A stretch of DNA of 49,874 nucleotides from Candidatus Methanoperedens sp. (GTDB taxonomy: Archaea > Halobacteriota > Methanosarcinia > Methanosarcinales > Methanoperedenaceae): contig VEPN01000020.1 in the NCBI GenBank assembly GCA_012026835.1, forward strand, positions 1-49,874, written 5' to 3'. This document shows, piece by piece, positions 18,828 through 32,570 of the stretch. The position numbers and the translations under genes are program-made. Numbering within the stretch: the stretch's first letter is position 1; every line of letters begins with the position of its first letter. A model generated the notes under the pieces. The model ran no database searches, was not told the origin of the DNA, and saw nothing but the letters and a program-made list of their open reading frames with translations.

Positions 18828-19268
18828 CTATTTACCTCCTAAATTTTATTCTTTAATCTGTTCCCCTATGCTGTACAAATCAGATTTGTAACAACATTCT
18901 TATTGAATTTGTGTCAGCATTGGTATAAACATAGCGAGATTTTTCTGAATTTTTTTGATTTTTCAGAGTTTCTTATCGTTTATTTCAGTTTTCTGTGACT
19001 TTTAATTTCTTTTTTTCAATTTTTAGCATATACTGTTTATTTATTATAGATTTTTCCAGCTATGTGTTACCGCTTGGCGCACTTGCCATGTCATATGAAG
19101 ATTACCCCCTGTGCGCCTGGATTTTTTGAACTGCAGATAAATGTTATAATCCATCCTTTAAGAAGGTTTAAGAAATAGAGGCATATGTTTTTACCATATG
19201 CCATTATCATATTGTTCTCATATTGGAATTCGTATATATTATATTAAGATTTCACCGGATTTAAAACC
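18828..19268. other. 441-bp intergenic region with promoter and structured element
   Basis: The AT-rich gap lies between two minus-strand genes. Near 18927-18935 the minus strand reads GTTTATACC, a plausible TATA box for the haem/surface gene about 100 bp ahead of its start. Further from the gene, 19035-19125 holds the third member of the inverted-repeat element described separately. I see no credible open reading frame in the rest. Confidence 0.5.
19035..19125 (-). promoter_or_regulatory. Third copy of the surface-gene inverted-repeat element (divergent, short)
   Basis: On the minus strand, GGCGCAC (19111-19117) and GTGCGCC (19076-19082) enclose a 28-nt loop opening AGGG and ending TGGCAA; AAGCG follows the stem and AAAAAATCC precedes it. 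The copies before the genes starting at 29738 and 32132 have the same skeleton with the stem GATGCAC/GTGCATC, so the stem differs by paired changes (AT to GC on both sides). On the plus strand the T6 after the stem resembles a terminator. A weaker outer pairing, CCAG/CTGG, is also present. It lies over 200 bp from the next gene start, so it need not be part of that gene's leader. Confidence 0.5.
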
Positions 19269-19934
19269 TTAATTTCCTGATATAGCAATTGAACTGGATT
19301 GAGACACTACAACCGAACTTGAGGATGAATTATTCCGGGAGGACCTGACGATTACCTGTTGCCTGGAATTATTGGTTTCAGAAATAACAGTTACATTGTT
19401 TCCATCTCTTGTAATCACGGGGTTTCCCCCTTGGGTCTCCACAGATACGTTCCCATCAACGGCACTGACTCTAATCTTGCTTTCCCCTGAAGAACTGCTT
19501 GCTTCAACAATGCTCTGCTGGATGATGCTTACTTTCCCCATGCTTTTTAGGGCTTTCGTTCTTTTTGCCTGATCCTCAATTTTTTCAGTTATATTTACAT
19601 GAATACTTCTATTCTCATCATACGCATCAGCATTAATGATACTCTGCAACTCTTCAAGCTGGCTTGTGTACTCATCCATGGCTCTTTCAAATGCCAGGGA
19701 GTTGTTCTCCATCATCTCCGCCTCTCTCAGGCGTTCATCGGCAAGATCAAGAATCCTCTGGGTTTTTTCAGTCTGGTTGGAAATAAAATTAATACTGAAC
19801 TTCTCCATCCATATTCTAAAAGAATATAAAAAATTATCAGGCCCTATTGATACAGATTCCTCTCTTGCCACCCCGGCTTGGGCTAATAGAAGCACTATGA
19901 CTATTATAGCAAAGGCTCTCATAATTTTTCTCAT
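19269..19934 (-). CDS. Secreted DUF5667-type helical protein with Ser/Asn-rich tail
   Basis: The 221-residue protein has a signal peptide (to about residue 23) and a DUF5667-like helical domain, PDNFLYSFRIWMEKFSINFI then a charged coil AERxREAE-like. The C-terminal part repeats the beta-rich pattern VSVETQGGNPVITRDGNNV and ends in SSSSSVVVSQSSSIAIS. Function is unknown; proteins of this type sit in the envelope of archaea and actinobacteria. Its ATG overlaps the last 4 bp of the 1254-residue surface protein gene, so the two are made together and may interact. Confidence 0.65.
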   Translation of the reverse strand: MRKIMRAFAIIVIVLLLAQAGVAREESVSIGPDNFLYSFRIWMEKFSINFISNQTEKTQRILDLADERLREAEMMENNSLAFERAMDEYTSQLEELQSIINADAYDENRSIHVNITEKIEDQAKRTKALKSMGKVSIIQQSIVEASSSSGESKIRVSAVDGNVSVETQGGNPVITRDGNNVTVISETNNSRQQVIVRSSRNNSSSSSVVVSQSSSIAISGN

Positions 19935-22900
19935 TTTATTTGATTTCTTATTTGTTTATTTTTAGATCTTATTTTGATATAGTAAAACAGCCCGACCATC
20001 CCGATCAGTGGTAACACTCCAAGAATAAGATTAAAACTTACAGGTGGTTTAATATCTGAACCTGATGTTGCCAGGGTACTATTTTTTGAGGATTCATTTG
20101 AGATGACAGGTGCCAGTTCAGAAGTTGAAGACACCTCTTGCTTTTTGGAACCCATAATGGCAAAGCTGCTGAAGTTTCCGACAAAGCTGGAGTAGTATGT
20201 GTGATTTGAAGCTCTTTCGGCGATTTCGGTACTCTTTTCCACCCACCCATCTTCCTGCCACTTATACAGGCTTATATCCTCAGGATTAAGACCGTTATCC
20301 TCAAGCCAGGTATTGTTGACCCTGTAAACCACCACCCCATTACGTACTTTTTTACTGAAGCCACTCGTCCCGACAAAGACATTAAAATATTTGTAGAGTG
20401 TACCCGGGGCATCAACTCCTATATTCTTTGACCTGTTCCTTAATACTTCAACTGCAACAGGTACCCAGTTCTCGCTTACGCTGCTTTCAAATGCTACAGC
20501 CATTACCGGATCTGCGGATTTGAAAACAAATGTTGAGGATGAAAATGCGAGCACGCTCGTCTCTTTTATCTCTCTGCGCTCTATGTTCTTGAAGTCCTCA
20601 CTTGGAGGTAATCCACCGCCACCTCCGCCACCACCACCGCTTGTGCTGCCGCCACCGCCATTGTTGGGCTTGACCGGGATGTTTATGAGTCTCACAAAAT
20701 CAGTATCTTTGATGACCTCATTACCCATTTTCCCTGTCAGTGTTGCCATATTCATGATACATGGATACCCTCCCTCGCATTTGAATTTAGATATATCACC
20801 TGTAGTTGCGGGATATGTATAGGTTATCTTCTGCGATTTATTGGCTTCAAGTGTTGAGATATTGAAATATCCCTGGTTTGATGGGTAAAAGGGATCATAG
20901 ATAGAGACATCTGTCAGATTAACACTGCTATTAGCTTCAAGCGTATAAGTAATGGTAGTAGCACTCCCTTCGGTAACCAGGGCAATTTCACCGTTTGCCT
21001 GTTTCATTTTGTAAATCGGGATAAGCGGGAGAGAGATGGTGGATGTATTTACATAAGAACCGCCGTTGCTATTGACAGTATAACTTAATGTATAATTGAA
21101 GAATCCATGAGTTTTGTCTTTCCAGTTAACTTTAGAGGAATTTATATCAAAGTATGGTCTTCCTTTGAAGGGCAGCTGCATGAAAGACAGGCTCTGGCCT
21201 TTTGAAAGCGTAACAGTGCAGGGCTTATCGCAATAAGTACTTGATATATCCGGACTGTCAGTTATTGTAAGGACCAGCGTATCTTCCCCATTATTCACAA
21301 AGACCCCATCAATCCCCATGAATTTTCCTATGTGTCCTGATCTGGCTTCACGCCAGGTCTCATTCCATGTTCCATTAGCAGTATCATGATTTATATATGG
21401 TTCTATAAATTTTATGTCAACTTTCAGAGGGACGATAACTTTAAAATCTTTAGAAGAAACGGAGCCGTATCCATCTTTGACACTGATACGCCAATTGTAG
21501 ATGCCGCCATCTCCGGCTCCTGGTTTCCATGAAAGTGCCCCGGTGGTATTATCAAACGTACCTTTTGTTGCAGTTGTTTCAAAAGTTCCCTTATCTAAAT
21601 CAATATCAGTATAATCGGCATTGATATAAAGAGCGGTACCTTCGTATATGAAATAACTATCAGATACATTTGTAAGTGTGATCGCATTATTATCAAGCTG
21701 GGTATTCATATATATTGAATCCGACACCAGCTGCGATGTTTCATTATATCCTGCAACAGAGATATTCACCCAGCCGTGGGGTGAGGTTGTCGTATTTATA
21801 AAATTAGTCCGGGTGTCGTTATGCCAGGTTCCATCAATATTCACATGGAATGAACTTGTATTCGCCCCGGCCAACCATGTATAGTTTACCCAGAAATTGC
21901 CCTTCTTGGAAGCAAGGCTGGTGGGAATACCGGGAGTATAGGCACTCACTGCTACGGTGAATTCCTTAGTCGAAGTAGTATACCCATCCGAGACGCTGAT
22001 GTACCAGTTATAGACACCGCCATCCTTTGGCCCTGTCTTCCATGAGATGATACCCGAGGATGAATCGATTGCAGCCTTTGCATTTGTCGAGAAAGTTCCC
22101 TCAGGGCCGTCGTCATCAATATAATCAGCATTGATGTAAAGAGTTTCACCCTGGAACAGGGTATAACCGGACGATACATTGGTCAGCGTTATCGGATTAT
22201 TAGGAATCTGGGTTTCCCGATATACAAAATCTGAAAGTGTCTGCGATGTAGCATTGTATCCAGCTACAGAGAGGTTAACCCACCCATGCGGTGAACTTTT
22301 AACATTTATATAATTGTTTGAAGTATTATACCATTTCCCATTTACGCTGACATTAAAGGAATCTGTGTTTGCGCCGGCCGACCATGTATAATTTACCCAG
22401 AAGTTAATTTTATCTGTTGTATTAGAAAGAATTGCAGGTTTTCCTGGCGTATAGGTATTTACGTTTACAGTAAATTCCTGAGAACTGCTTCCATATCCAT
22501 CGCCAACATTTATATACCACTTATAGGAACCGCGATCAGCGGCGCCTGTTTTCCATATCAGGACGCCCGTTGATGGATTAAAATCACCTTTTGCATTTGT
22601 TGAGAAATTTCCCTCAGGGCCGTCATCATCAATATAATCAGCATCGATATAAAGAGTGTCACCTACATTCAAGGAATAACTGGATGATACATTTGTCAGA
22701 GTGATTGGATTATCGCTTACCTGTCTGTCTCTTTTTACCGGAGTCAAACTTAACTGGCCGTTTCCAGAATTATTGTATGCCCAGACTGATATGTTACTCC
22801 AGCCATGGGGACCGACATTGCTGGTGTTAGATGTTTCCGTGGTTCCGTTTATCCAGTTACCATTCACACTGATGTTGTAGCTGTCGGTTTCATTGCCTGT

Positions 22901-23695
22901 TCCTGCCTTCCATGTGTATTTTATCCAGAAATTTCCTTGCGAATCAACAAAGCTGGCAGGGGCAGGCGGGATATACACTGGTATTACATCTTCGGTAACA
23001 GTTGCTTTCTTACCTGCTTCCTTATCTGCTGTCTCGTTTGTTGTCCCGTCTGCTGTTCCATTTACTGTCTCACTTGCTATCTCATTTACTATCACAATTA
23101 TTGTTTCGCTTGCAGCACCGTCATAACCATCTTTTGAACTAAATGACCATACATAAGTTCCGTTATCATTGTTATCCGGCTTCCAGGTATAATCGCCTGT
23201 TGCGGGGTCCAGATATCCTTTTGTGGCATTCGTACTATAGGTTATCGGGTCTGAATCCGCATCAGTTGAGGATACCTTAAATTTCAATTCATTGCCAGGA
23301 ATAGCAGTTTGATTTCCGATTGTAGACTGGACAGGTGCGTTATTCTTGACTTGCATACTATTCGAAACAGGGCTTGAGCTCAAACTACCGTTACCTGAAT
23401 TATTGTATCCCCAGACTGATATATTGCTCCAGCCATGCGGTCCAACAGAATTATTAGAATAGAGAAGGGTTCCATTTGTCCATAATCCATTTACGCTGAC
23501 ATTAAAAGAATCTGTGTTCGCGCCAGCCGACCATGTATAATTTACCCAGAAATTTCCCTGCGTGGCTATAAGATTCTCCGGGGGGGATGGAACATAAGCA
23601 GGTTCATCATCCGCAGAAACATCTTTTAATCCAATAGAGAAAAAAGGGATTAAGGATGCCAAAACGATTATAAGGACTTTTTTTTTAATCAGCAT
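19931..23695 (-). CDS. Large modular surface protein with PGF-pre-PGF domain
   Basis: This 1254-residue protein has a signal peptide (1-28), then four units each made of a Fn3-like domain (NFWVNYTWSAGANTDSF, SPHGWVNISV) and a cadherin-like domain (LYINADYIDDDGPEG, GIYNWRISVKDGYG). Between the first two is a Thr/Glu-rich linker. A further beta region precedes a glycine stretch (GGGGGGGGGLPP), followed by a PGF-pre-PGF domain (from SVLAFSSSTFVFKSADP) and a C-terminal membrane helix. It is heavily endowed with NxS/T sites, so an N-glycosylated, membrane-anchored S-layer or adhesin is inferred. The start follows AGGAGTTAAAAAAG. It is coupled to the DUF5667-like gene. Confidence 0.8.
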   Translation of the reverse strand: MLIKKKVLIIVLASLIPFFSIGLKDVSADDEPAYVPSPPENLIATQGNFWVNYTWSAGANTDSFNVSVNGLWTNGTLLYSNNSVGPHGWSNISVWGYNNSGNGSLSSSPVSNSMQVKNNAPVQSTIGNQTAIPGNELKFKVSSTDADSDPITYSTNATKGYLDPATGDYTWKPDNNDNGTYVWSFSSKDGYDGAASETIIVIVNEIASETVNGTADGTTNETADKEAGKKATVTEDVIPVYIPPAPASFVDSQGNFWIKYTWKAGTGNETDSYNISVNGNWINGTTETSNTSNVGPHGWSNISVWAYNNSGNGQLSLTPVKRDRQVSDNPITLTNVSSSYSLNVGDTLYIDADYIDDDGPEGNFSTNAKGDFNPSTGVLIWKTGAADRGSYKWYINVGDGYGSSSQEFTVNVNTYTPGKPAILSNTTDKINFWVNYTWSAGANTDSFNVSVNGKWYNTSNNYINVKSSPHGWVNLSVAGYNATSQTLSDFVYRETQIPNNPITLTNVSSGYTLFQGETLYINADYIDDDGPEGTFSTNAKAAIDSSSGIISWKTGPKDGGVYNWYISVSDGYTTSTKEFTVAVSAYTPGIPTSLASKKGNFWVNYTWLAGANTSSFHVNIDGTWHNDTRTNFINTTTSPHGWVNISVAGYNETSQLVSDSIYMNTQLDNNAITLTNVSDSYFIYEGTALYINADYTDIDLDKGTFETTATKGTFDNTTGALSWKPGAGDGGIYNWRISVKDGYGSVSSKDFKVIVPLKVDIKFIEPYINHDTANGTWNETWREARSGHIGKFMGIDGVFVNNGEDTLVLTITDSPDISSTYCDKPCTVTLSKGQSLSFMQLPFKGRPYFDINSSKVNWKDKTHGFFNYTLSYTVNSNGGSYVNTSTISLPLIPIYKMKQANGEIALVTEGSATTITYTLEANSSVNLTDVSIYDPFYPSNQGYFNISTLEANKSQKITYTYPATTGDISKFKCEGGYPCIMNMATLTGKMGNEVIKDTDFVRLINIPVKPNNGGGGSTSGGGGGGGGGLPPSEDFKNIERREIKETSVLAFSSSTFVFKSADPVMAVAFESSVSENWVPVAVEVLRNRSKNIGVDAPGTLYKYFNVFVGTSGFSKKVRNGVVVYRVNNTWLEDNGLNPEDISLYKWQEDGWVEKSTEIAERASNHTYYSSFVGNFSSFAIMGSKKQEVSSTSELAPVISNESSKNSTLATSGSDIKPPVSFNLILGVLPLIGMVGLFYYIKIRSKNKQIRNQIK

Positions 23696-23774
23696 CTTTT
23701 TTAACTCCTGAGTTTAAATCATGAATCTTATTTCTCAACTTGTTAATTCATGTCTCTCAAGGAAAGGAGAAAAT

Positions 23775-24758
23775 TCATTCGCTTTTCATCCTTAACCCCA
23801 GGTTCTGGATTTTCGTGCCATTGAGGGGTATTACCACCTCTGTTTCTATCCTTTTCATACTCTGAACTGTGTACCTTCCAAGCTCTTTTGATAGCTTCTC
23901 TGGCACATCCACATTAATCATATCATCCTCTGCCTTGAGCTCAATCAATTTCCCATTAGTCCCTTCGCCCTGCATTTTTTCTATGATTCCATCAAGGTTA
24001 GTAACATTAACCTTTGGTGTCATATCCAACATGAGAGTTGCATTATAAGTTTTTCTACCGAAATTCTGGGCTCTGAACTTTACAACGAGATTGTCGCCAT
24101 CTTTAGTAACATTCCATTTTGTCATTGTCACATGTGGTGTTAAATTTTCAGGAGGGTAAACATCATAATCTTCTGCCAGAATCTGGAGCAAATAAAAGTC
24201 TCGTTCTTTGGCCTTTCCATTAAACACTTTCTTCCCCATTTTCTCAGCACAGAGGGGCAGTCCCCCTTTGCCATCTACCGGACTTCCACAGAACCACCAG
24301 TTGCCGGAGTTCTCAGCCGGGGCCTTGGGATCAGGGAAAAGAATTCGCTTTAACCCTCCCATGATCTGCTTCATATATATTTTCTCAGAGTTTGTAACAG
24401 TAATTGATTGGTTTACATCCCCTTTATTCCATTCCCATGTGAAACCATCGTTTCCCACTTTATCCAGAAAAAGTGATCTCTCTTCGCGCGCCATATCACC
24501 GGATTCGCCCCATTGGATTATGTTCCCTCCGCCGACATTATCATAATAGATATTCTGGGTAACGCTGCCATCCCAGGAGTAGCCTATTTGGCTTGCACTG
24601 GCTATTTCAAAGCCAGAAATCCCAGTCTCCTGGTTTGTATCTCCCATTCTGCTTACCGCAAATTGAGCAACCGTAGCCGAACTCATATCTTCTTCGGCAG
24701 CTGCAGCTCCGGCCAATACAATCAAAGTTATTGTTAGAAGGCAAATCCAGTTTGTCAT
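23775..24758 (-). CDS. Secreted protein of unknown family with G-x-V-x-Q motifs
   Basis: I cannot assign this 327-residue protein. A signal peptide ends near AGAAAAEED (about residue 21). The N-terminal half has GSVTQNIYYD and GDVNQSITV, the motif also found in the next two genes upstream; the middle has a Cys pair (WWFCGSP, LPLCAEK); the C-terminal half looks like a beta-sandwich (VVKFRAQNFGRKTYNATLML). There is no membrane anchor after the signal. It starts 11 bp after the next gene's stop, with GAGGAGAAAAT before its ATG, so it belongs to a secreted-protein operon. Confidence 0.65.
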   Translation of the reverse strand: MTNWICLLTITLIVLAGAAAAEEDMSSATVAQFAVSRMGDTNQETGISGFEIASASQIGYSWDGSVTQNIYYDNVGGGNIIQWGESGDMAREERSLFLDKVGNDGFTWEWNKGDVNQSITVTNSEKIYMKQIMGGLKRILFPDPKAPAENSGNWWFCGSPVDGKGGLPLCAEKMGKKVFNGKAKERDFYLLQILAEDYDVYPPENLTPHVTMTKWNVTKDGDNLVVKFRAQNFGRKTYNATLMLDMTPKVNVTNLDGIIEKMQGEGTNGKLIELKAEDDMINVDVPEKLSKELGRYTVQSMKRIETEVVIPLNGTKIQNLGLRMKSE

Positions 24759-24769
24759 ATTTTCTCCTC

Positions 24770-25165
24770 TTACCCTATTACTAACACATCCTGGTCCAGG
24801 ATCTGTAAGTTACCCTCTATTACAACTTCAATTCCCTGTGAAACGTTACCAGAGGCATAATTCTGTGTATATTGAAGTAAATCGAGTCTTATTGAATTAT
24901 TTCCATTTATAGAATTGTTAATATTACCTGAATAATTATCATCAGAGATAACCACCAGACTATCCTGGTTTATTATCTGTACATTCCCGGCTGCCCGAAC
25001 AAACGCATTCTGCCTTACATCTCCATCTCCATGGTTCCATGCCATCTGGGCAACTCTTATAACTACTTTGTTATCACCATTAAGATCTGCTTTCTGATTA
25101 ATATCTGCAAGTACCGGGTATGCAGTGATGCAAATTAATACCAGTACAAGCAAAATCCTCCTCAT
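24770..25165 (-). CDS. Small secreted curlin-like repeat protein (candidate)
   Basis: From ATG 25165 (GGGTGAGTTGC before it) the product has 131 residues with a signal peptide ending at VLADIN. The mature part is a series of short strands with spaced Asn, Gln and Gly: GDVRQNAFVRAAGNVQIINQ, GNINNSINGNNS, GNVSQGIEVVIEGNLQI. This resembles the spacing in curli/CsgA-type beta-solenoids but is not a confident match. It lacks Cys. It lies between a glycine-rich secreted protein and another secreted protein with the same motif. Fibre or matrix subunit is the inference. Confidence 0.6.
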   Translation of the reverse strand: MRRILLVLVLICITAYPVLADINQKADLNGDNKVVIRVAQMAWNHGDGDVRQNAFVRAAGNVQIINQDSLVVISDDNYSGNINNSINGNNSIRLDLLQYTQNYASGNVSQGIEVVIEGNLQILDQDVLVIG

Positions 25166-25257
25166 GCAACTCACCCCTTTTTCGATGATTTCATACGTCA
25201 GCCAAATAGAAAGTAAGGGAATAGGCAAGGCCTGCTCCCCTAAACTTATAGCAACTT

Positions 25258-26076
25258 TCAGACTGGAACGACTATACCATCAGTCCATGGAACATTATCC
25301 TGTTCGGCCAATGAGTCCGAGTTGTTCTCCTGGATTATAGACTTCCAGATGTCTACTGCTGCCTCGTCATAGGCGCTGGCATCCTGCCACTCTTTTATTT
25401 TGACTTTCTGTTCGAGATTCTGCTCGTTATAGATATCTGCTTTTGCAAGCTGAACTACGGCATTTATCTGATTGACATCTCCGCTGAATCCCTCAGGGCT
25501 TCCGCCCATGTTGTCTGAAGCATCTCCAGACATAGCAGTCGCTGTGGATGATGCATCATTGTTGCAGCCGGAACCGCCCTTGCCGCCATGTCCCATGCCT
25601 TCACCATTGCCTTTGCCTGTACCTGTGCCTGTACCGGCACCTGTGCCGTCGGCACTATTGCCTGCATTGGTATTCAGGTTATCCTGAACATTGCCATTTG
25701 ATGCGCCACCGCCAGTACCTGTTCCAACACCATTTCCGGTGCCAGTTCCAGCGCCTGTGCCTGTACCTGTGCCACTGCCACCATTGCAGCCAGCCAGATT
25801 ATCAGTGTTTGCAGAATTTGCAACTGCGCCTGCAGTAGACTGTGCAGCTACATTACCGCCCATGGCAATCCCCTGCGCCCAGTTAGAAATATCACCATTG
25901 TTGATTAATTGCTGATTCACACTGTTTGTTGCCGTATTGGCCCCATTTACATCAACCCCAAGAGCCTTTTCGTTCGTTCCACCTGTTGATGTGGAAATAG
26001 CCGTCGGATTTGCCATTGCTGGCATCATTCCGATCACGGTTGCTACAATAAGTAGCATTGTTACTATTTTCTTCAT
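25258..26076 (-). CDS. Secreted Gly/Thr/Asn-rich low-complexity protein
   Basis: The 272-residue protein has a signal peptide ending at AMANPT. Its mature N-terminus is Asn/Gln-rich (VNQQLINNGDISNWAQGIAM), the centre is a GTGTGTGAGTGTGNG-type run in two blocks separated by ASNGNVQDNLNTN, and the C-terminus (from GDVNQINAVVQLAKADI) is charged and less repetitive. Two Cys flank the low-complexity part. The composition suits a flexible or amyloid-like extracellular matrix component. The start follows GAGGTGAAAAT and lies 36 bp beyond a GC-rich hairpin and the three-way-junction sequence at 26.11-26.18 kb. Confidence 0.65.
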   Translation of the reverse strand: MKKIVTMLLIVATVIGMMPAMANPTAISTSTGGTNEKALGVDVNGANTATNSVNQQLINNGDISNWAQGIAMGGNVAAQSTAGAVANSANTDNLAGCNGGSGTGTGTGAGTGTGNGVGTGTGGGASNGNVQDNLNTNAGNSADGTGAGTGTGTGKGNGEGMGHGGKGGSGCNNDASSTATAMSGDASDNMGGSPEGFSGDVNQINAVVQLAKADIYNEQNLEQKVKIKEWQDASAYDEAAVDIWKSIIQENNSDSLAEQDNVPWTDGIVVPV

Positions 26077-26111
26077 ATTTTCACCTCATTTCATACTATA
26101 TACTTAACACG

Positions 26112-26180
26112 GCCCGGTTTTTTCCGGGCAAATGTACCTCCGGGGCTTGAACCCGGTCATGTCGGCCTTCCGACAGGTAC
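26112..26180 (-). other. Perfect three-way-junction sequence plus hairpin at a gene junction
   Basis: On the minus strand GTACCT (26175-26180) pairs with AGGTAC (26134-26139). Between them sit the hairpin GTCGG-AAGG-CCGAC (26161-26174) and the hairpin CCGGG-TTCAAGC-CCCGG (26140-26156), joined by ATGA, which contains the stop codon of the lipoprotein gene. A second stem, GCCCGG-A6-CCGGGC (26112-26129), follows. TTCAAGC has the form of a tRNA T-loop, but no D or anticodon arm exists. Not followed by a U-tract, so not a standard terminator. It may be a processing or stability site between two co-transcribed genes. Confidence 0.6.
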
Positions 26181-26675
26181 TTCAAAAGTAATATTCCATG
26201 CAGCCCTCTTTACCGCAGTATTATTCTCAGAAATCTGGATATACATCCACACATAGCTGACATTTCCTTTTGGCTGTATGGTGTAATTTTGGGTCCAGGT
26301 ATTATTGACAGTCTGAATTATTTCGGTTATATCTGTCCATTCCTGTCCTATCTGAGGTTTGAATACTGTAAGCACTGTTTCATTCAATCTGGGGTTCTTT
26401 ACCTGCAATTGGACTGAAAGCCTGCCTGTACTGTTGAATTCTTTAGATAGTAAACGCAGGCGTATTTGGTTTGAATCGCTCATGTTAGCCGTACTCTGCA
26501 TAGAGACTTCCTCAACAGGGTTCTTATCGCTAATATTCTGAACAGGGAGTTCCACACCCTGTTTACTCTCCTTGCCAACGCATCCACCAAGGGCAGATAT
26601 CAATATTAGCATCCCCACAATCCTCCACGGTATGGAGACGGAAGGTAGCCCCACTGAAATTGACTTTTTATCCAA
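26157..26675 (-). CDS. Secreted lipoprotein
   Basis: The preferred start is TTG 26675, preceded by AAGGAGGAAATA; the longer frame to 26705 would include this ribosome site and also begins with TTG. The 172-residue product has a hydrophobic segment followed by ISALGGC, a lipobox with Cys at about 32, so the mature protein is probably lipid-anchored. The rest is a beta-rich domain (RLSVQLQVKNPRLNETVLTV) with several glycosylation-type NxS/T sites and no Cys. Function is unknown. It is the first gene of the secreted operon that continues to 23775. Confidence 0.65.
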   Translation of the reverse strand: MDKKSISVGLPSVSIPWRIVGMLILISALGGCVGKESKQGVELPVQNISDKNPVEEVSMQSTANMSDSNQIRLRLLSKEFNSTGRLSVQLQVKNPRLNETVLTVFKPQIGQEWTDITEIIQTVNNTWTQNYTIQPKGNVSYVWMYIQISENNTAVKRAAWNITFEVPVGRPT

Positions 26676-26790
26676 TATTTCCTCCTTTCTGAATATCCCC
26701 CACAATGCAACTCAACTCCCTCGATTCCTCAAAGAGGGTTCTGAGATATACTTTAGATTGTGGTACAATTCAATACATATACCACTTACC

Positions 26791-26822
26791 TTAAAAAACA
26801 TTAAGAAGTACTAGCATATTCT
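26791..26822. promoter_or_regulatory. Conserved surface-gene box, copy 1
   Basis: TTAAAAAACATTAAGAAGT followed by ACTAGCATATTCT. A second site at 30074 matches the first 19 bases with one difference, and one at 32571 matches 25 or so of 32. All lie upstream of minus-strand genes for exported proteins. On the minus strand TTTTTTAA could also serve as a TATA box. Proposed shared regulator site; unproved. Confidence 0.5.
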
Positions 26823-26860
26823 GTAACCCTATGAAAGAACAATATAATACTTAATTATAG

Positions 26861-26951
26861 ATTTGGCATATAGACTTGGCATATAGACTTGGCATATAGA
26901 CTTGGCATATAGACTTGGCATATAGACTTGGCATATAGACTTGGCATATAG
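26861..26951. repeat. Tandem array, seven copies of a 13-bp unit
   Basis: Seven head-to-tail copies of ACTTGGCATATAG; only the first (ATTTGGCATATAG) has a change, and a decayed eighth follows. The array stands midway between divergent genes, 76 bp before the winged-helix start. Iterated regulator binding is the simplest reading. Such arrays also occur as replication iterons, but no initiator gene is adjacent. Confidence 0.9.
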
Positions 26952-27027
26952 GCTAAGTATGTAGAATAAATAGCTAAAGTATTATAAATTATAAAACTAA
27001 AATTTAATTACGAATGAAATCAACACA

Positions 27028-27225
27028 ATGAAACCTATGGATCGAATATTAAAGCAGCTTCAAGATACCCAATGGCATAGTTTAGATGAAATAAAAAAGA
27101 GTGTCTCTTTGCCCTCTCAAACGCTAAATGCGATAATATGTTTTCTTCAAGAACAGGCATTCATTAATAAAGAAGATGAGAAGCTAAGAATAACACGTCT
27201 GGGATTAAGATATTTAGATATTTGA
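27028..27225 (+). CDS. Small winged-helix DNA-binding protein
   Basis: The 65-residue protein is a bare winged-helix domain: helix ILKQLQD, turn HSLDEIKKSV, recognition helix LPSQTLNAIICFLQEQAFI and a wing KEDEKLRITRLGLRYL. No sensor domain is attached. There is no clear ribosome site, and a TATA-like stretch lies about 35-50 bp upstream, so the message may have a short leader. Its position next to the 13-bp array suggests it binds there and controls itself and the divergent lipoprotein operon. A decayed relative lies at about 35.07-35.21 kb. Confidence 0.7.
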   Translation: MKPMDRILKQLQDTQWHSLDEIKKSVSLPSQTLNAIICFLQEQAFINKEDEKLRITRLGLRYLDI

Positions 27226-27228
27226 AAA

Positions 27229-27429
27229 TCAATCCCTTAATTCAGGTTTTGTTATAAGTAAATCCATCTCATATCTGCTCAATGGTGAAAATTCTACAGA
27301 ACCACATTTAATGCATCTTCTTTTACTATTCATGTTTATTGTTGCACATCTATCACAAACTTTAAATTGACGACCTTGTAATCTTCCAAAGTCGTCAGTA
27401 TATTTTTTGCTAATCTTCAATCTTACCAT
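27229..27429 (-). CDS. Small zinc-ribbon protein
   Basis: This 66-residue protein has two knuckles, CDRC and CIKC, 15-20 residues apart, in a basic context (RLKISKKY, SKRRC), which forms a zinc ribbon that probably binds nucleic acid or protein. Family not recognised. It is convergent with the winged-helix gene (3 bp apart). A hairpin-plus-T terminator separates it from the cytochrome gene, so it probably has its own promoter. GGGGG occurs 7 bp ahead of the ATG. Confidence 0.65.
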   Translation of the reverse strand: MVRLKISKKYTDDFGRLQGRQFKVCDRCATINMNSKRRCIKCGSVEFSPLSRYEMDLLITKPELRD

Positions 27430-27445
27430 TGCAATTCCCCCAAAT

Positions 27446-27473
27446 ATAAAAAAATACGGATTTATATATCCGT
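27446..27473 (-). terminator. Terminator of the trihaem cytochrome gene
   Basis: ACGGAT (27456-27461) and ATCCGT (27468-27473) make a 6-bp stem, followed on the minus strand by ATTTTTTTATA. It lies 8 bp past the cytochrome stop. Confidence 0.65.
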
Positions 27474-27480
27474 TAATATT

Positions 27481-28425
27481 CTACCTTTCTATTTCTTCCC
27501 TTTTCTGGGCAAGAGCTGCCGGAACATGGACCAGGTGACATTTGAAGCAGCTCTCTTCCCCGATTTCCTGACTCAGTTTCCCTACCTTATTTGAATCAAC
27601 TGGTGATTCTGAAAGAGCCTGTCCCAGTGTATCAATCCTGGCCTGCACATCTTCATCAATGTAGTATTCTCTCTTACTTGTATGGCAGTTGCCGCAAGTC
27701 CCTTTCATCGCTTGGAAAGTCATGTTGAATTCGTTGAAACGCAGCCTGGCATTTTCGATCTGGTTCTGCCCGATATCTGCACCGACTCCTACGAAGTTTG
27801 CATCAATAAGCTGCATCAACCTGGAAAAGCTTATGCTTTCATTCGCGAGGTGAACACTTATCTCTTCAAACTTCTTTCCATCAAGCGTTCTCCAGTGATA
27901 TTTCATCTGGACTTTTGGCATATTGACACTATGGCAGTTCTCGCATACCTGCCCCATATTCCCATATGCAGCCATGATTTTATTCCGATCCCCTGTTTTC
28001 AGGGCGGCTTCGAGTGAATCTGCCGGGTACATCAGGAAGAAACCTTCCCATTCAGGTACCAGCTTAGAGTTATTTTTGTACTGTGCCTTGAACTTTTTGA
28101 AATCGTCCCTTGCATTCTCCAGATCGTTCTCTGACAGGTCGGCGGCAATGCTTGCGAAGTAAGTACCCTGAGCCAGCATCCCAATGAGCCATACCGGCCT
28201 ATCAGCCTTTGGCGGAAATAAATTATCCAGGGATTTCGGAAGTGCAACATCAGGGACCGGAACATCAGGAACAGGAATCAGGGGAAAGAAAGCCGATGTA
28301 TCGATTATGTTTTCATTTGTGCCTGCCGGTTCATTTTCATTCCATACTTTGTCATTTGCTCCCAGCGCAGTGACAAGCGCAGCTGTAAAGATGCCTATTA
28401 ACAGTAGTAGAATTAATCGTTTCAT
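27481..28425 (-). CDS. Exported triheme c-type cytochrome
   Basis: This 314-residue protein has a signal peptide (1-21) and three haem sites: CENCH at 161-165, CGNCH at 244-248 and CFKCH at 293-297. Residues about 80-180 and 200-250 look like two helical units (DLENARDDFKKFKAQYK and QIENARLRFNEFNMTFQ) of cytochrome c-prime/c556 type, each closed by a haem site, with the third haem at the end. It would act outside the membrane in electron transfer. The gene has AAGGAGGTTAGTT before ATG and is bounded by terminators on both sides, so it is a single-gene unit. Confidence 0.85.
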   Translation of the reverse strand: MKRLILLLLIGIFTAALVTALGANDKVWNENEPAGTNENIIDTSAFFPLIPVPDVPVPDVALPKSLDNLFPPKADRPVWLIGMLAQGTYFASIAADLSENDLENARDDFKKFKAQYKNNSKLVPEWEGFFLMYPADSLEAALKTGDRNKIMAAYGNMGQVCENCHSVNMPKVQMKYHWRTLDGKKFEEISVHLANESISFSRLMQLIDANFVGVGADIGQNQIENARLRFNEFNMTFQAMKGTCGNCHTSKREYYIDEDVQARIDTLGQALSESPVDSNKVGKLSQEIGEESCFKCHLVHVPAALAQKREEIER

Positions 28426-28464
28426 AACTAACCTCCTTTTGATATAATATTCTGACGTTTTTAT

Positions 28465-28493
28465 TAAAAAATAAAAGAGGGACTTGATCCCTC
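28465..28493 (-). terminator. Terminator of the 408-residue surface gene
   Basis: On the minus strand GAGGG-ATCAAGT-CCCTC is followed by TTTTATTTTTT. It starts 19 bp after the stop codon and is nearly identical to the one after the 599-residue paralogue. Confidence 0.75.
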
Positions 28494-28511
28494 AAAATTT
28501 ATTTGACTGAC

Positions 28512-29738
28512 TCAGTATATGACCTGCAGATCACCTGAAGTCAGTGTGCCCGATTTATGGTAATTCTTGGCAGGGATAGAGATATCGAATGTATCTTTAC
28601 TTACATACGGTGATGCCGGTTGTCCACCATCCTTGACATTAACTACAAAGTCGTATGGACCTTCATTGTTGAACATCGCCTTTCCTTTTATCTCTCCTGT
28701 CTTCGGGTCTGCATTCTTGTTGGTCTTAACCGAGTTTATCTCTGTGGCCACGATCCTATTGCCTTCATTGTCTTCAGTCTCTACCGTGCCTTTCGGCATG
28801 AACTTGGTGAATGCAAAGATCTTAAAGGTCAGTTCCGGAGCTACCTTGTTGCCCAAGGTTCCCCATCCGACTACCTTGCAGCGGTCTTTACATCCTTCTG
28901 GCGGAATGACATTTACTGTTGTCTGTGCCATTTCGGTTGGGAACTGAGGTGGGGCAATGTCGATATCAATTATTCTGCCATCTACAATCGGGTTACCATG
29001 ACCAGTAGCCGTATTTGTGGTGTTAGCGGTTATAGCCGCTGTGCACTCATACTTCCATGATTCACCTGGATTAAGTAAACCATCGTTATTAGTATCACCG
29101 CTCTTGAAAGTTACTGGCGAACACTTATCATCATCCACTCTAACATTGGTAAGATTCACATTTCCGGTGTTTGTTTCAGTATATGTGTAGGTGACTGTTT
29201 CACCTGGCGCCACGTTAGTTTTATCCACTGTCTTTGTCAGTTTGCTGTTGGGGCTGATGAGAGTAATTTGTCTTGAGAAACTCTGTTGATCTGTTACGCC
29301 ATTTTGCGGATTGACTAATTCAAGTCTGATTACAAACTCATATATGGCATTAAGTGGAGCTGTTTCCTTAACTTTAATTGTAGTTAGTTTAGGATCTTTA
29401 TAAACATCTGCACCAAGACTTTGGAAATCTGTTTTTGGATTCACGACCTGACCATTCAACGCAAGACTATCTCGTGTTATTTCCAGATCGTTTGGATTTC
29501 CTGCTGTGATTTCTACGGTGAATTTGTAATCTAATCCTTGATCAACGTACAGTGAATTCAAATTTGCCTGAAAATTGCCTGAAATGCTGTCTCCTGGTAT
29601 TTGGATTTCGATCAATTGAACAGGGAACGGTTGATTGGTCGCTGGGTTAATTAAAACTAAATCACCTGCTGAAGCTATTCCTGTCAAAGCAACCATCACT
29701 GCAAGTAATGCAACAACAGTTGTAATTCTACGTTTCAT
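28512..29738 (-). CDS. Exported surface protein with post-COAP-like C-terminal domain
   Basis: The 408-residue protein has a signal peptide (to about residue 24), a beta-rich N-terminal region, a DUF11-like domain (LTKTVDKTNVAPGETVTYTY, TNTGNVNLTNVRVDD), and a C-terminal domain of about 120 residues beginning KVVGWGTLGNKVAPELTFKI that resembles the post-COAP type. That last domain is nearly identical to the C-terminus of the 599-residue protein at 30333, as are the terminator and the element before the start. DUF11 domains are common in archaeal surface proteins. There is no anchor, so it is secreted or held by partners. The start follows GGAGTGATAAATAAAT. Confidence 0.75.
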   Translation of the reverse strand: MKRRITTVVALLAVMVALTGIASAGDLVLINPATNQPFPVQLIEIQIPGDSISGNFQANLNSLYVDQGLDYKFTVEITAGNPNDLEITRDSLALNGQVVNPKTDFQSLGADVYKDPKLTTIKVKETAPLNAIYEFVIRLELVNPQNGVTDQQSFSRQITLISPNSKLTKTVDKTNVAPGETVTYTYTETNTGNVNLTNVRVDDDKCSPVTFKSGDTNNDGLLNPGESWKYECTAAITANTTNTATGHGNPIVDGRIIDIDIAPPQFPTEMAQTTVNVIPPEGCKDRCKVVGWGTLGNKVAPELTFKIFAFTKFMPKGTVETEDNEGNRIVATEINSVKTNKNADPKTGEIKGKAMFNNEGPYDFVVNVKDGGQPASPYVSKDTFDISIPAKNYHKSGTLTSGDLQVIY

Positions 29739-29773
29739 ATTTATTTATCACTCCTATTTTTTTAATTTATTCT

Positions 29774-29889
29774 GGTGCGTTTACCTTCCGGTAAGGCTCA
29801 CCCTCCGGCTGCCTTATATAGCGCCCACCAAGCGCTTGATGCACTTACCACCCAACCCTTACGGGCAAACCCCCATGCATCTCGGATTT
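29774..29889 (-). promoter_or_regulatory. Surface-gene inverted-repeat element, copy 2
   Basis: On the minus strand: AAAAAATCCGA, stem GATGCAT (29875-29881) with GTGCATC (29838-29844); inside it CCC-GTAA-GGG; then a hairpin AGCGC/GCGCT (29820-29836), a central TATATAAGG, a hairpin TAAGGC/GCCTTA (29792-29816), and AGGTAAAC (29779-29786), which can pair back to GTTTGCCC (29863-29870). The element ends about 36 bp before the start codon. TATATAAGG could be the actual TATA box (initiation near 29785-29790), in which case most of the dyads are DNA sites; if transcription starts further up, this is a folded leader. Confidence 0.6.
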
Positions 29890-30073
29890 TTTAATATGTG
29901 GTTTGACGAAAAAAATCTCCACGATTAGCATTATGGACATGAATCATGCAATTTGTTTCTTTTTTTATTCCTCCTTTGTGACCTCCCTCGCAAACCCTTT
30001 TGTCACAAACATATGGATCACCACTACAGAGAGATATTTTAAATTATAACAAGGATTCAAGAGATTCCATCAT

Positions 30074-30105
30074 TTAAAAAACATTAAGGAGTGACAATAT
30101 TTGCT
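30074..30105. promoter_or_regulatory. Conserved surface-gene box, copy 2
   Basis: TTAAAAAACATTAAGGAGT at 30074-30092 differs by one base from 26791-26809. It lies about 185 bp beyond the inverted-repeat element of the same gene. Confidence 0.5.
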
Positions 30106-30285
30106 ATTAATACATAGAATTAGCATGTGATACGAACATATGATTTTGTTGGTATTATAAAAAATTATAGATATTAAATATTAATTTTTAAAAAATGCAC
30201 AGAGTTATTTATTTGAGGAATATCCAGATATTTATTACAGAAAATAGGATTATCCAAAATACCTCTTTTAATTTATAGCTTTATT

Positions 30286-30314
30286 AAAAAATAAAAGAGG
30301 GATTTCTATCCCTC
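30286..30314 (-). terminator. Terminator of the 599-residue surface gene
   Basis: GAGGG-ATAGAAAT-CCCTC followed by TTTTATTTTTT on the minus strand, 19 bp after the stop codon. Near-copy of 28465-28493. Confidence 0.75.
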
Positions 30315-30332
30315 AAACTTTATTCAACTGAC

Positions 30333-32132
30333 TCATTTTATGACTTGCAGATCACCTGAGGTCGGTGTGCCCGATTTATGGTAATTCTTGGCAGGGATAG
30401 AGATATCGAATGTATCTTTGCTTGCATACGGTGATGCTGGTTCTCCGCCATCCGTGACCATAACTACGAAGTCATATGGACCTTCATTGTTGAACATCGC
30501 CTTTCCTTTTATCTCTCCCGTCATCGGGTTTACTGTCTTATCGGTTAACACCGAGTCTATCTGTGTGGCTTTTATCTTATTGCCTGCGTCGTCTTCAGCT
30601 TCTACAGTGCCTTTTGGCATGAAGTTACTATATGCCCAGATCTTGAATGTCAGTTCCGGAGCGACCTTGTTGCCCAGGGTTCCCCATCCAACTACCTTAC
30701 CTGGCTTTAATTCTTCTGGCTTTTTGTTGCCGAAGTCTATGCCTGTCACAATTTGTCCTGCTGAGAGTGTCACTGTATGGGTTCCTGGCACTGCCGGGAA
30801 GGTCTGTATCCAGCCTGCCTGCAGGGTCTCTGATACGGTATAGGTGCCTGGCGGCAGATCCTTGAATGAATAGTCGCCATTTGCGTCTGTCTGAGTCGTT
30901 TCAGTAGATCCGTCAGGTTTTGTCAGTGTGATTGTCCAGTTAGCAAGTCTTGGTTCAGTCGCACCCTTTATTCCATCACCATTGGTATCATTCCACTTCT
31001 GGCCTGAGATACTACCATTTGGTATTAGTTGATTACCGAAATCTCTATCTACTACATTCTGTCCGCCTGCGAGATTTACAGTATAAGTTCCTGGCGGTAC
31101 TGGTGTTGGTGCTGTCTGTTTCCAGCCTGCCTGCAGTGTTTCTGATACGGTATAGGTGCCTGGCAGCAAATTCGTGAATGAATAGTTGCCGTTTGTGCCT
31201 GTCTGAGTTGTCTCAGTAGATCCATCAGGCTTTGTCAGTGTGATTGTCCAGCCCGAAAGTCTTGGTTCATTTGCGTCTTTTATTGCATCACCATTGAGAT
31301 CGTTCCATTTCTGGCCTGAGATACTGCCATTCTGTATGTTGGCGAAATTCAGACCTGTGGCATCATTTGTATCTACGGTCACGGTATGTGTTCCTGGAGG
31401 CACTGGTTGAGGTCCTGTCTGTGTCCAGCCTGCCTGAAGTACCTCTTCAACAGTAAAGGTGCCTCGGAAGCCCAGGAAATCCGTCCCAATAACAGCTCCG
31501 GTGGAGTCAGTAATGTTTACCTGTTCTCCTTTGAATGAATAATTTCCATTTTGATCCGTGAGAGTCGTAGCTACTACAGTACCGTTTTCATCTCTCAAGT
31601 TGATCGTCCAACCAGCAAGTCCGGGTTCTCCTTGGCCGCATATTCCACTACCATCGAGGTCATTGCATTTCTTGCCTGTGATAATTCCACCTTGTAGTAC
31701 TATAGTTCTTGATGCTTGTGATGGAAGGTTGGGATTCAAATAAGAGACAAAATACTGATAAATTGTCCCGGCTTGTCTTGAGATAGGTGCATTAACTTCT
31801 ATCCTTGCTGAATCATCTTGGGTAGATGTTGGAGTTGAAGTTACTAAGAAAGTATCCTTGAGTGTTGTAAAGTTGACATCTGCTGCATTGCAATTAGCCG
31901 CCGGCTGACAATTAGTAAATTGTATAGCCAAAGGATAATTTGTGTTTAGCTCCGTTGAAAGAATTGAAGTTAACCTAACACCTATGTTAAATGCATCATG
32001 ATTCTTAACTAAAATTGGTTCACCCAATACTTGTCCATCTCTTAAAAGTTCTTGGCTTACCGCCGACGCTGCTCCTGTCAGCGCAACCATCGTCGCAAAT
32101 AATGCAGCAATGGTCAATAATTTATGTTTCAT
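30333..32132 (-). CDS. Exported surface protein with SdrD-B-like repeats and post-COAP-like domain
   Basis: The 599-residue protein has a signal peptide ending at ASAVSQ (about 25), a unique N-terminal beta region, three SdrD B-type repeats (GSISGQKWNDLNGDAIKD, GTYTVSETLQAGW), the first more divergent (ITGKKCNDLDGSGICGQGEP), and a C-terminal post-COAP-like domain starting KVVGWGTLGNK, shared with the 408-residue paralogue. The DxNxDG loops of the B repeats usually bind calcium and stiffen the rod. Thus the two paralogues keep the leader, signal and C-terminus and differ in the middle. The start follows AAAGGAGAGATAATAT. No membrane anchor. Confidence 0.78.
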   Translation of the reverse strand: MKHKLLTIAALFATMVALTGAASAVSQELLRDGQVLGEPILVKNHDAFNIGVRLTSILSTELNTNYPLAIQFTNCQPAANCNAADVNFTTLKDTFLVTSTPTSTQDDSARIEVNAPISRQAGTIYQYFVSYLNPNLPSQASRTIVLQGGIITGKKCNDLDGSGICGQGEPGLAGWTINLRDENGTVVATTLTDQNGNYSFKGEQVNITDSTGAVIGTDFLGFRGTFTVEEVLQAGWTQTGPQPVPPGTHTVTVDTNDATGLNFANIQNGSISGQKWNDLNGDAIKDANEPRLSGWTITLTKPDGSTETTQTGTNGNYSFTNLLPGTYTVSETLQAGWKQTAPTPVPPGTYTVNLAGGQNVVDRDFGNQLIPNGSISGQKWNDTNGDGIKGATEPRLANWTITLTKPDGSTETTQTDANGDYSFKDLPPGTYTVSETLQAGWIQTFPAVPGTHTVTLSAGQIVTGIDFGNKKPEELKPGKVVGWGTLGNKVAPELTFKIWAYSNFMPKGTVEAEDDAGNKIKATQIDSVLTDKTVNPMTGEIKGKAMFNNEGPYDFVVMVTDGGEPASPYASKDTFDISIPAKNYHKSGTPTSGDLQVIK

Positions 32133-32165
32133 ATATTATCTCTCCTTTATTTTTTATTTTATTTC

Positions 32166-32282
32166 GGTGCATTTGCCCTTCAGTAAGGCTCACCTACGGC
32201 TGCCTTATATAGCGCCCACCTGGCGCTTGATGCACTTACCACTCGACCCTTGCGGGCAAATCCCTGTGCATCTCGGATTTTT
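32166..32282 (-). promoter_or_regulatory. Surface-gene inverted-repeat element, copy 1
   Basis: On the minus strand: AAAAAATCCGA, stem GATGCAC (32266-32272) with GTGCATC (32229-32235) enclosing CCC-GCAA-GGG, hairpin AGCGCC/GGCGCT (32211-32227), TATATAAGG, hairpin TAAGGC/GCCTTA (32184-32207), and GGGCAAAT (32171-32178) that is a perfect partner of ATTTGCCC (32254-32261). The terminal ATGCAC (32167-32172) could also replace the first strand of the main stem, so two exclusive folds exist. In copy 2 the long-range pair changes from A-T to G-C at its end, keeping the pairing. It ends 34 bp before the start codon. Confidence 0.6.
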
Positions 32283-32570
32283 TAAGACGTGGTTTAAATA
32301 AAACATAATCATCAATTGTATATTAAAGATATAAATATAATAATTATAAAATATTTTTCGAGCCCATGTACCATGCAGTTCATACTCCCCATTTTCCCTT
32401 TCATTGTCTGTGCTCCCTGATGATATTCGTTTTTAATGATTAACTATGCCTTGGAAAAGATTATCTATCTTCTGCAATCGATTATTACCCGATTTTTCCT
32501 CCTTTTCCAGTTCCCATGCCTTTTTAGTATTTATTCAAACAACTTCATAGCATTATTGTAATTACATACA

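Follow-up and report, generated by a model that had tools for sequence, protein, structure and literature searches.

A conserved surface-protein operon of Candidatus Methanoperedens with a tRNA-like element at the border of its lipoprotein gene

The 49,874-nucleotide stretch of Candidatus Methanoperedens DNA analysed here (contig VEPN01000020.1; hereafter the window) carries a six-gene surface-protein set of a methane-eating archaeon that is undescribed and, at the junction between the lipoprotein gene LP and gene A, a 54-nt tRNA-like element that is the most testable surprise of the operon. The best explanation of the whole, to which we give a probability of about 0.5, is a cell-surface assembly operon whose message would be cut at this element. 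All six genes lie on the reverse strand. LP (26157..26705), identified as an open reading frame and by homologue alignment, codes for a lipoprotein with the lipobox LGGC and a conserved C-terminal half; A (25258..26076) for a secreted, Gly-rich protein with conserved ends and a hypervariable middle; B (24770..25165) for a secreted protein of 131 residues; and C (23775..24758) for a secreted protein that joins a motif-bearing N-terminal domain to a C-terminal Ig-like beta-sandwich. Gene D (19931..23695) encodes a large surface protein of 1254 residues with Ig-like repeats (Big_9, He_PIG), a PGF-pre-PGF domain (E 2e-28) and a C-terminal membrane segment, and gene E (19269..19934) a DUF5667 protein (E 1.2e-12) with a conserved beta/Ser-rich tail. 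The signal peptides of A, B and C, and the lipobox of LP, were judged by eye. For B, the ATG at 25165 is a more probable start of translation than the TTG at 25228, because the homologous frames align from about the former. The earlier note on this DNA had placed three motif-sharing genes behind a lipoprotein and ahead of a 1254-residue surface protein, and these positions are confirmed.

The order LP-A-B-C-D-E recurs, where contigs reach, at 13 loci in 8 of the 31 Ca. Methanoperedens genomes, strains ANME-2d and Mnv1 included. The gene group is therefore a real unit, and the lack of conservation that had been foreseen as a ground for giving it up is not what is found. B occurs in one copy in three of the genomes and in two copies in five; C is present in the same eight genomes, and LP was also located, by its reading frame, in G011. 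D follows C in most copies, G005a being an exception, and only some copies have E after D. In trees of B and C it is mainly the tips that are resolved. Outside the genus, 392 genomes of the phylum yielded no convincing relative of B and 185 genomes of the order none of C; the phylum matches for B (G092, G125) are weak and not convincing, and those for C in the order (G469, G496) are weak too, the G496 region being, by eye, a metallo-beta-lactamase-like protein. A search of viral contigs found no relatives either. Searches of Pfam, NCBIfam and the PDB sequences with A, B and C gave no credible match, the B profile having none in the PDB and the C profile chance-level matches only. Judged by sequence, A, B and C are families without described relatives in the libraries searched. 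Titles and abstracts on Methanoperedens amyloid or matrix yielded nothing relevant.

A, B and C share the short motif G-[DNS]-V-x-Q. The peptides from which it had been proposed were all found in place: GDISNWAQGI and GDVNQIN at residues 61 and 199 of A, GDVRQNA and GNVSQGI at residues 49 and 107 of B, and GSVTQNI and GDVNQSI at residues 64 and 113 of C. The three mature proteins together contain five instances of the motif in its strict form (G[DNS]V.Q), against a shuffle mean of 0.08, a count reached in none of 2000 shuffles; B and C account for the excess, A by itself being weak (1 vs 0.04, p about 0.04). Homologues of A, B and C carry 2.0, 5.8 and 5.0 motifs per 1000 residues, respectively, against a background of two in the other local ORFs (49,500 residues), of which one lies in a truncated C. 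The Gln and Gly columns of the motif show no variation across homologues, and the conserved ends of A bear the Gln pattern GDVxQxN..VQxAxA....Q.L.Q. The three proteins had been described as lacking global similarity. This needs qualifying, because the profile of B matches the N-terminal domain of C, weakly and with WNxGxGDVxQ at its centre (the match is equalled by 2 of 100 column shuffles). A shares the motif only, and its profile comparisons with the others, equalled by 7-8 of 100 column shuffles, are not clearly above shuffles.

B is an exact 58-residue tandem duplication in which the Gln, Asn and Gly positions are invariant. Its two repeats match each other at E 1.8e-16, and nine invariant residues are paired at an offset of 58, compared with a maximum of seven and a mean of 3.3 in 5000 random placements. 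The invariant Gln residues of B (40, 52 and 67; 98, 110 and 125) have spacings that alternate between 12 and 15; those of C (32, 43, 57, 68 and 82; 117 and 131) alternate between 11 and 14. Structure prediction, which the earlier note had called for, succeeded with C and failed with B. In the AlphaFold model of C, nine strands are predicted, with the motif, in the N-terminal domain (residues 27-133; block pLDDT mostly 75-95 over residues 41-140), and the C-terminal part (about residues 208-327) forms a beta-sandwich like many Ig-type domains; a fold search returned VIA (Z 9.4, 83 residues, rmsd 2.5), with mainly the C-terminal half covered. The model of B has a pLDDT of 47 and no confident fold, and was set aside.

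It is plausible, as a hypothesis, that A, B and C serve as the subunits of a fibre or matrix. LP, as a membrane-anchored lipoprotein, would be the candidate anchor, and A, B and C would be exported subunits or linkers whose Gln/Asn strand-turn-strand modules may stack into a beta-rich polymer or matrix material. The repeats of B would be the most regular of these units, and in C a module of this kind would be linked to a beta-sandwich; D may act as a membrane-held scaffold and E as an accessory protein. The low confidence of the B model speaks against such a stacked assembly, as does the little that A has in common with B and C beyond the motif, and ordinary beta-domains also hold Gln-rich strands. 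It is a real possibility, which we put somewhat below even, that the operon specifies an ordinary surface complex in which A, B and C, as S-layer-associated or adhesion proteins, bind D without polymerising, the motif being no more than a local beta-strand signature. The common beta-sandwich in which C ends, the typical Ig-repeat character of D and the failure of the B model all fit such a complex; the exact duplication in B and the Gln pattern that it has in common with C speak more for stacking than for strands placed at random. A true archaeal curli system, with A, B and C as curlin relatives forming a curli amyloid with dedicated export factors, is far less probable, and its spacing of Gln, Asn and Gly and its tandem strand-turn-strand look are what it has in its favour. 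The reminiscence of curlin noted at the outset is borne out as a strand-turn-strand Gln pattern in B and C and does not extend to a curlin profile or repeat. PF07012 has no match in this genome at E 10 and none in 237 genomes of the class at E 0.01, a search in which the E. coli control was detected; nor did a Pfam scan of all A, B and C homologues at E 10 find a curlin. The minimal curli repeat is X6-Q-X-G-X2-N-X10 (PMC3521004); Q.G..N occurs five times each in CsgA and CsgB of E. coli and not once in the homologues of A, B and C. When B was aligned to CsgA and CsgB with hhalign, 84 and 87 of 100 column shuffles, respectively, scored as high. Because there is no PF07012 match and no Q-x-G-x2-N, and the CsgA and CsgB scores are no better than those of shuffles, A, B and C are not curlins; membership of that family is largely refuted, and the resemblance, as far as sequences tell, is one of style only, with short strands that bear Gln and Asn and are separated by Gly turns.

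The tRNA-like (t-element-like) element occupies 26130..26183 on the reverse strand and was recognised by its fold, by covariation and with a covariance model. It reads GUACCU-GUCGGAAGGCCGAC-AUGA-CCGGG-UUCAAGC-CCCGG-AGGUAC-A and is composed of a stem P1 (GUACCU/AGGUAC), a hairpin P2 (GUCGG/CCGAC) and a T-arm (CCGGG-UUCAAGC-CCCGG), followed by an A; its folding energy is -22.6 kcal/mol (z -3.55). The UGA stop codon of LP ends at element position 27. The covariance model finds the element in every operon copy (13 of 13, each below E 1e-15), and in 12 of these the LP stop lies at the same position 27; in G009 the LP frame stays open across the element. Over the 13 copies, 87.4% of cells are paired, against 27-52% for slid structures, and both sides have changed in 12 cells against 3.9 in shuffles; P1 is paired in 93.6% of cells and the T-stem in 98.5%, with covariation. 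Over the 22 model matches the corresponding values are 93.2% and 99.1%, and both-side changes are seen in 11 of 16 pairs, in an alignment that leans towards the structure because the model guided its fit and two of its matches are marginal. Most weight falls on the slid controls and on the changes seen between close copies, because the shuffle controls leave sequence relatedness in. P1 occurs as GUACC/GGUAC, GCGCC/GGCGC, GUGCC/GGCAC and ACGCC/GGCGU, and the T-stem as CCGGG/CCCGG or CUGGG/CCCAG. The 5' strand of P1 is coding sequence and the 3' strand is noncoding, so protein constraint fails to explain the matching changes. The T-loop residues G-T-T/C-C-R-A-N-C are kept in 19 of 20 rows, and the A after P1, at the discriminator position, is nearly invariant. 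P2 is the weak point, being paired in only 68-75% of cells, and for two of the six elements that were folded (G009 and G011) the energies are no better than those of shuffles. ARAGORN reports no tRNA at the element, which has no full cloverleaf with an anticodon arm, and an Rfam scan over 19000-32500 returned nothing there and only a sub-threshold CPEB3 ribozyme match. Between the element and gene A lies a further hairpin, P4 (GCCCGGAAAAAACCGGGC; 26107..26130, reverse strand), predicted by folding and matched by similar hairpins in relatives. At the LP/A border of three loci (L051, L053 and L054), a larger structure with repeated AGTCCCTGCGGC units replaces the hairpin after the element.

Related elements are found elsewhere. 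Two loci in two genomes (L139 and L140) each have two of them before secreted-protein genes (covariance model, E 1e-8 to 1e-11), and another (L142) has one short form before another secreted-protein gene. The elements of L139 (6811-6867 and 8262-8320) and L140 (7714-7772 and 8753-8809) lie in a row of repetitive secreted-protein genes, where the LP frame is gone and the RNA structure remains. Weaker matches, at E about 1e-4, fall in an unrelated operon of this genome (C31) and of G017, and in two genomes from other genera of the Methanosarcinales (L144 and L147). A second element type, with the T-stem GCAGG/CCTGC, lies between genes of an unrelated conserved operon (L143:6447-6502 and L141:6819-6873), which occurs in this genome and in G017. 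ARAGORN predicts a tRNA in none of these further elements. Most other matches of the covariance model resemble true tRNAs (about 78 nt; both of the two checked are tRNA-Gly) or comprise the T-arm only.

We infer from the shape that the element shares with the t-elements of Haloferax that a cut there would part the LP message from that of A, B and C. The element lies exactly at the LP/A border of the transcript, and translation of LP ends inside it. Cutting there by RNase P and/or tRNase Z would set the message for the anchor apart from those for the subunits and let the amounts of anchor and subunits differ. The element thus probably marks where the message is cut, by analogy with the Haloferax case. 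A structure that governs stability, attenuation or translational coupling, opened for example by the translation of LP and controlling access to A, would account for the fixed position of the LP stop within the fold and for the second hairpin ahead of A; we consider it less likely than not, since a generic hairpin would need neither the T-loop identity residues nor the usual 3' A nor the stacking of acceptor stem on T-arm, and since elements are also found at borders after unrelated upstream sequence. The 3' end of tRNA genes serves many integrases, and the T-arm and 3' acceptor strand of the element resemble such an end. That it is an attachment-site fragment left over from integrase recombination at a tRNA gene is nevertheless scarcely credible, given that the 5' acceptor strand, in the coding end of LP, covaries with the 3' strand (GUACC/GGUAC, GUGCC/GGCAC, ACGCC/GGCGU) and that the element holds the same position in all operon copies. 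Extending the preferred reading of processing at the element, one may imagine an extracellular polymer, unrelated to curlin, of three motif-sharing proteins, with an anchor-to-subunit ratio tuned by t-element cutting, a device that would recur in other Methanosarcinales operons; we regard this combination as speculative and doubtful.

Upstream of the operon, TRF detects a 13-bp tandem array of 7.4 near-perfect copies of TATAGACTTGGCA (26856..26951), which is unique in the genome. Arrays of period 12, 13, 24 or 26, with units that differ from the one here, lie upstream of 8 of the 13 operon copies, compared with 9 of 108 control segments, a difference whose p of 2e-5 is merely indicative because the operon copies are related. 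A conserved, promoter-like element, CTTAATGTTTTTTAAGG (26789..26805, reverse strand), recurs at much the same place ahead of most operon copies and may function as a promoter. A conserved CTTAATGTTTTTTAA element comes after the tandem arrays, and the two together may point to a shared regulator. The promoter-like CTTAATGTTTTTTAA element also occurs at 30074-30088 (reverse strand), upstream of a post_COAP-type gene (28512-29738), hinting at shared regulation; the product of this gene and that of 30333-32132 are tandem secreted proteins with a common C-terminal post_COAP-like domain. Adjoining the operon, here and in G011 (L048:8911-9843), is a gene for a multihaem cytochrome-like secreted protein with three CxxCH (27481-28425, reverse strand).

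It is at its outer surface that Methanoperedens brings methane oxidation together with metals, electrodes and partner cells, and the matrix proteins of this surface are little described; the operon offers a defined, conserved gene set for work on this surface. Moreover, the element makes the splitting of archaeal mRNA by tRNA enzymes testable beyond the 5S rRNA case. The t-elements of Haloferax are tRNA-like structures embedded in longer transcripts, where RNase P and tRNase Z cut them (PMC4326828, PMC3296008). Like them, and in particular like that of the 5S rRNA leader of Haloferax volcanii, the element described here is a tRNA-like structure at an RNA border of a longer transcript, with an acceptor-like stem stacked on a T-arm, T-loop residues and a 3' discriminator position. 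Unlike the Haloferax elements, it is situated between genes for proteins, takes in the end of the coding sequence upstream and has been conserved within a surface-protein operon, and its cleavage is putative. In plant mitochondria, t-elements are tRNA-like structures that set mRNA ends, mainly 3' ends, via tRNA processing enzymes, in a domain of life different from that of this archaeal element. As to the proteins, the sheath protein SH/MspA of Methanospirillum is secreted, consists largely of stacked beta-strands and forms an external layer, as one protein with a helix-containing cap domain (PMC10593813). We set the present operon beside SH by description; unlike SH, it combines several small proteins and anchors. 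It shares with curli (CsgA/CsgB, PF07012) small secreted proteins built of tandem strand-turn-strand units with Gln, Asn and Gly, and the adjoining of minor and major subunits. The export factor CsgG serves in curli at an outer membrane, which archaea do not have. The unit of the Methanoperedens proteins, at about 25-29 or 58 residues and with neither the Q-x-G-x2-N pattern nor a profile match, differs from that of curli.
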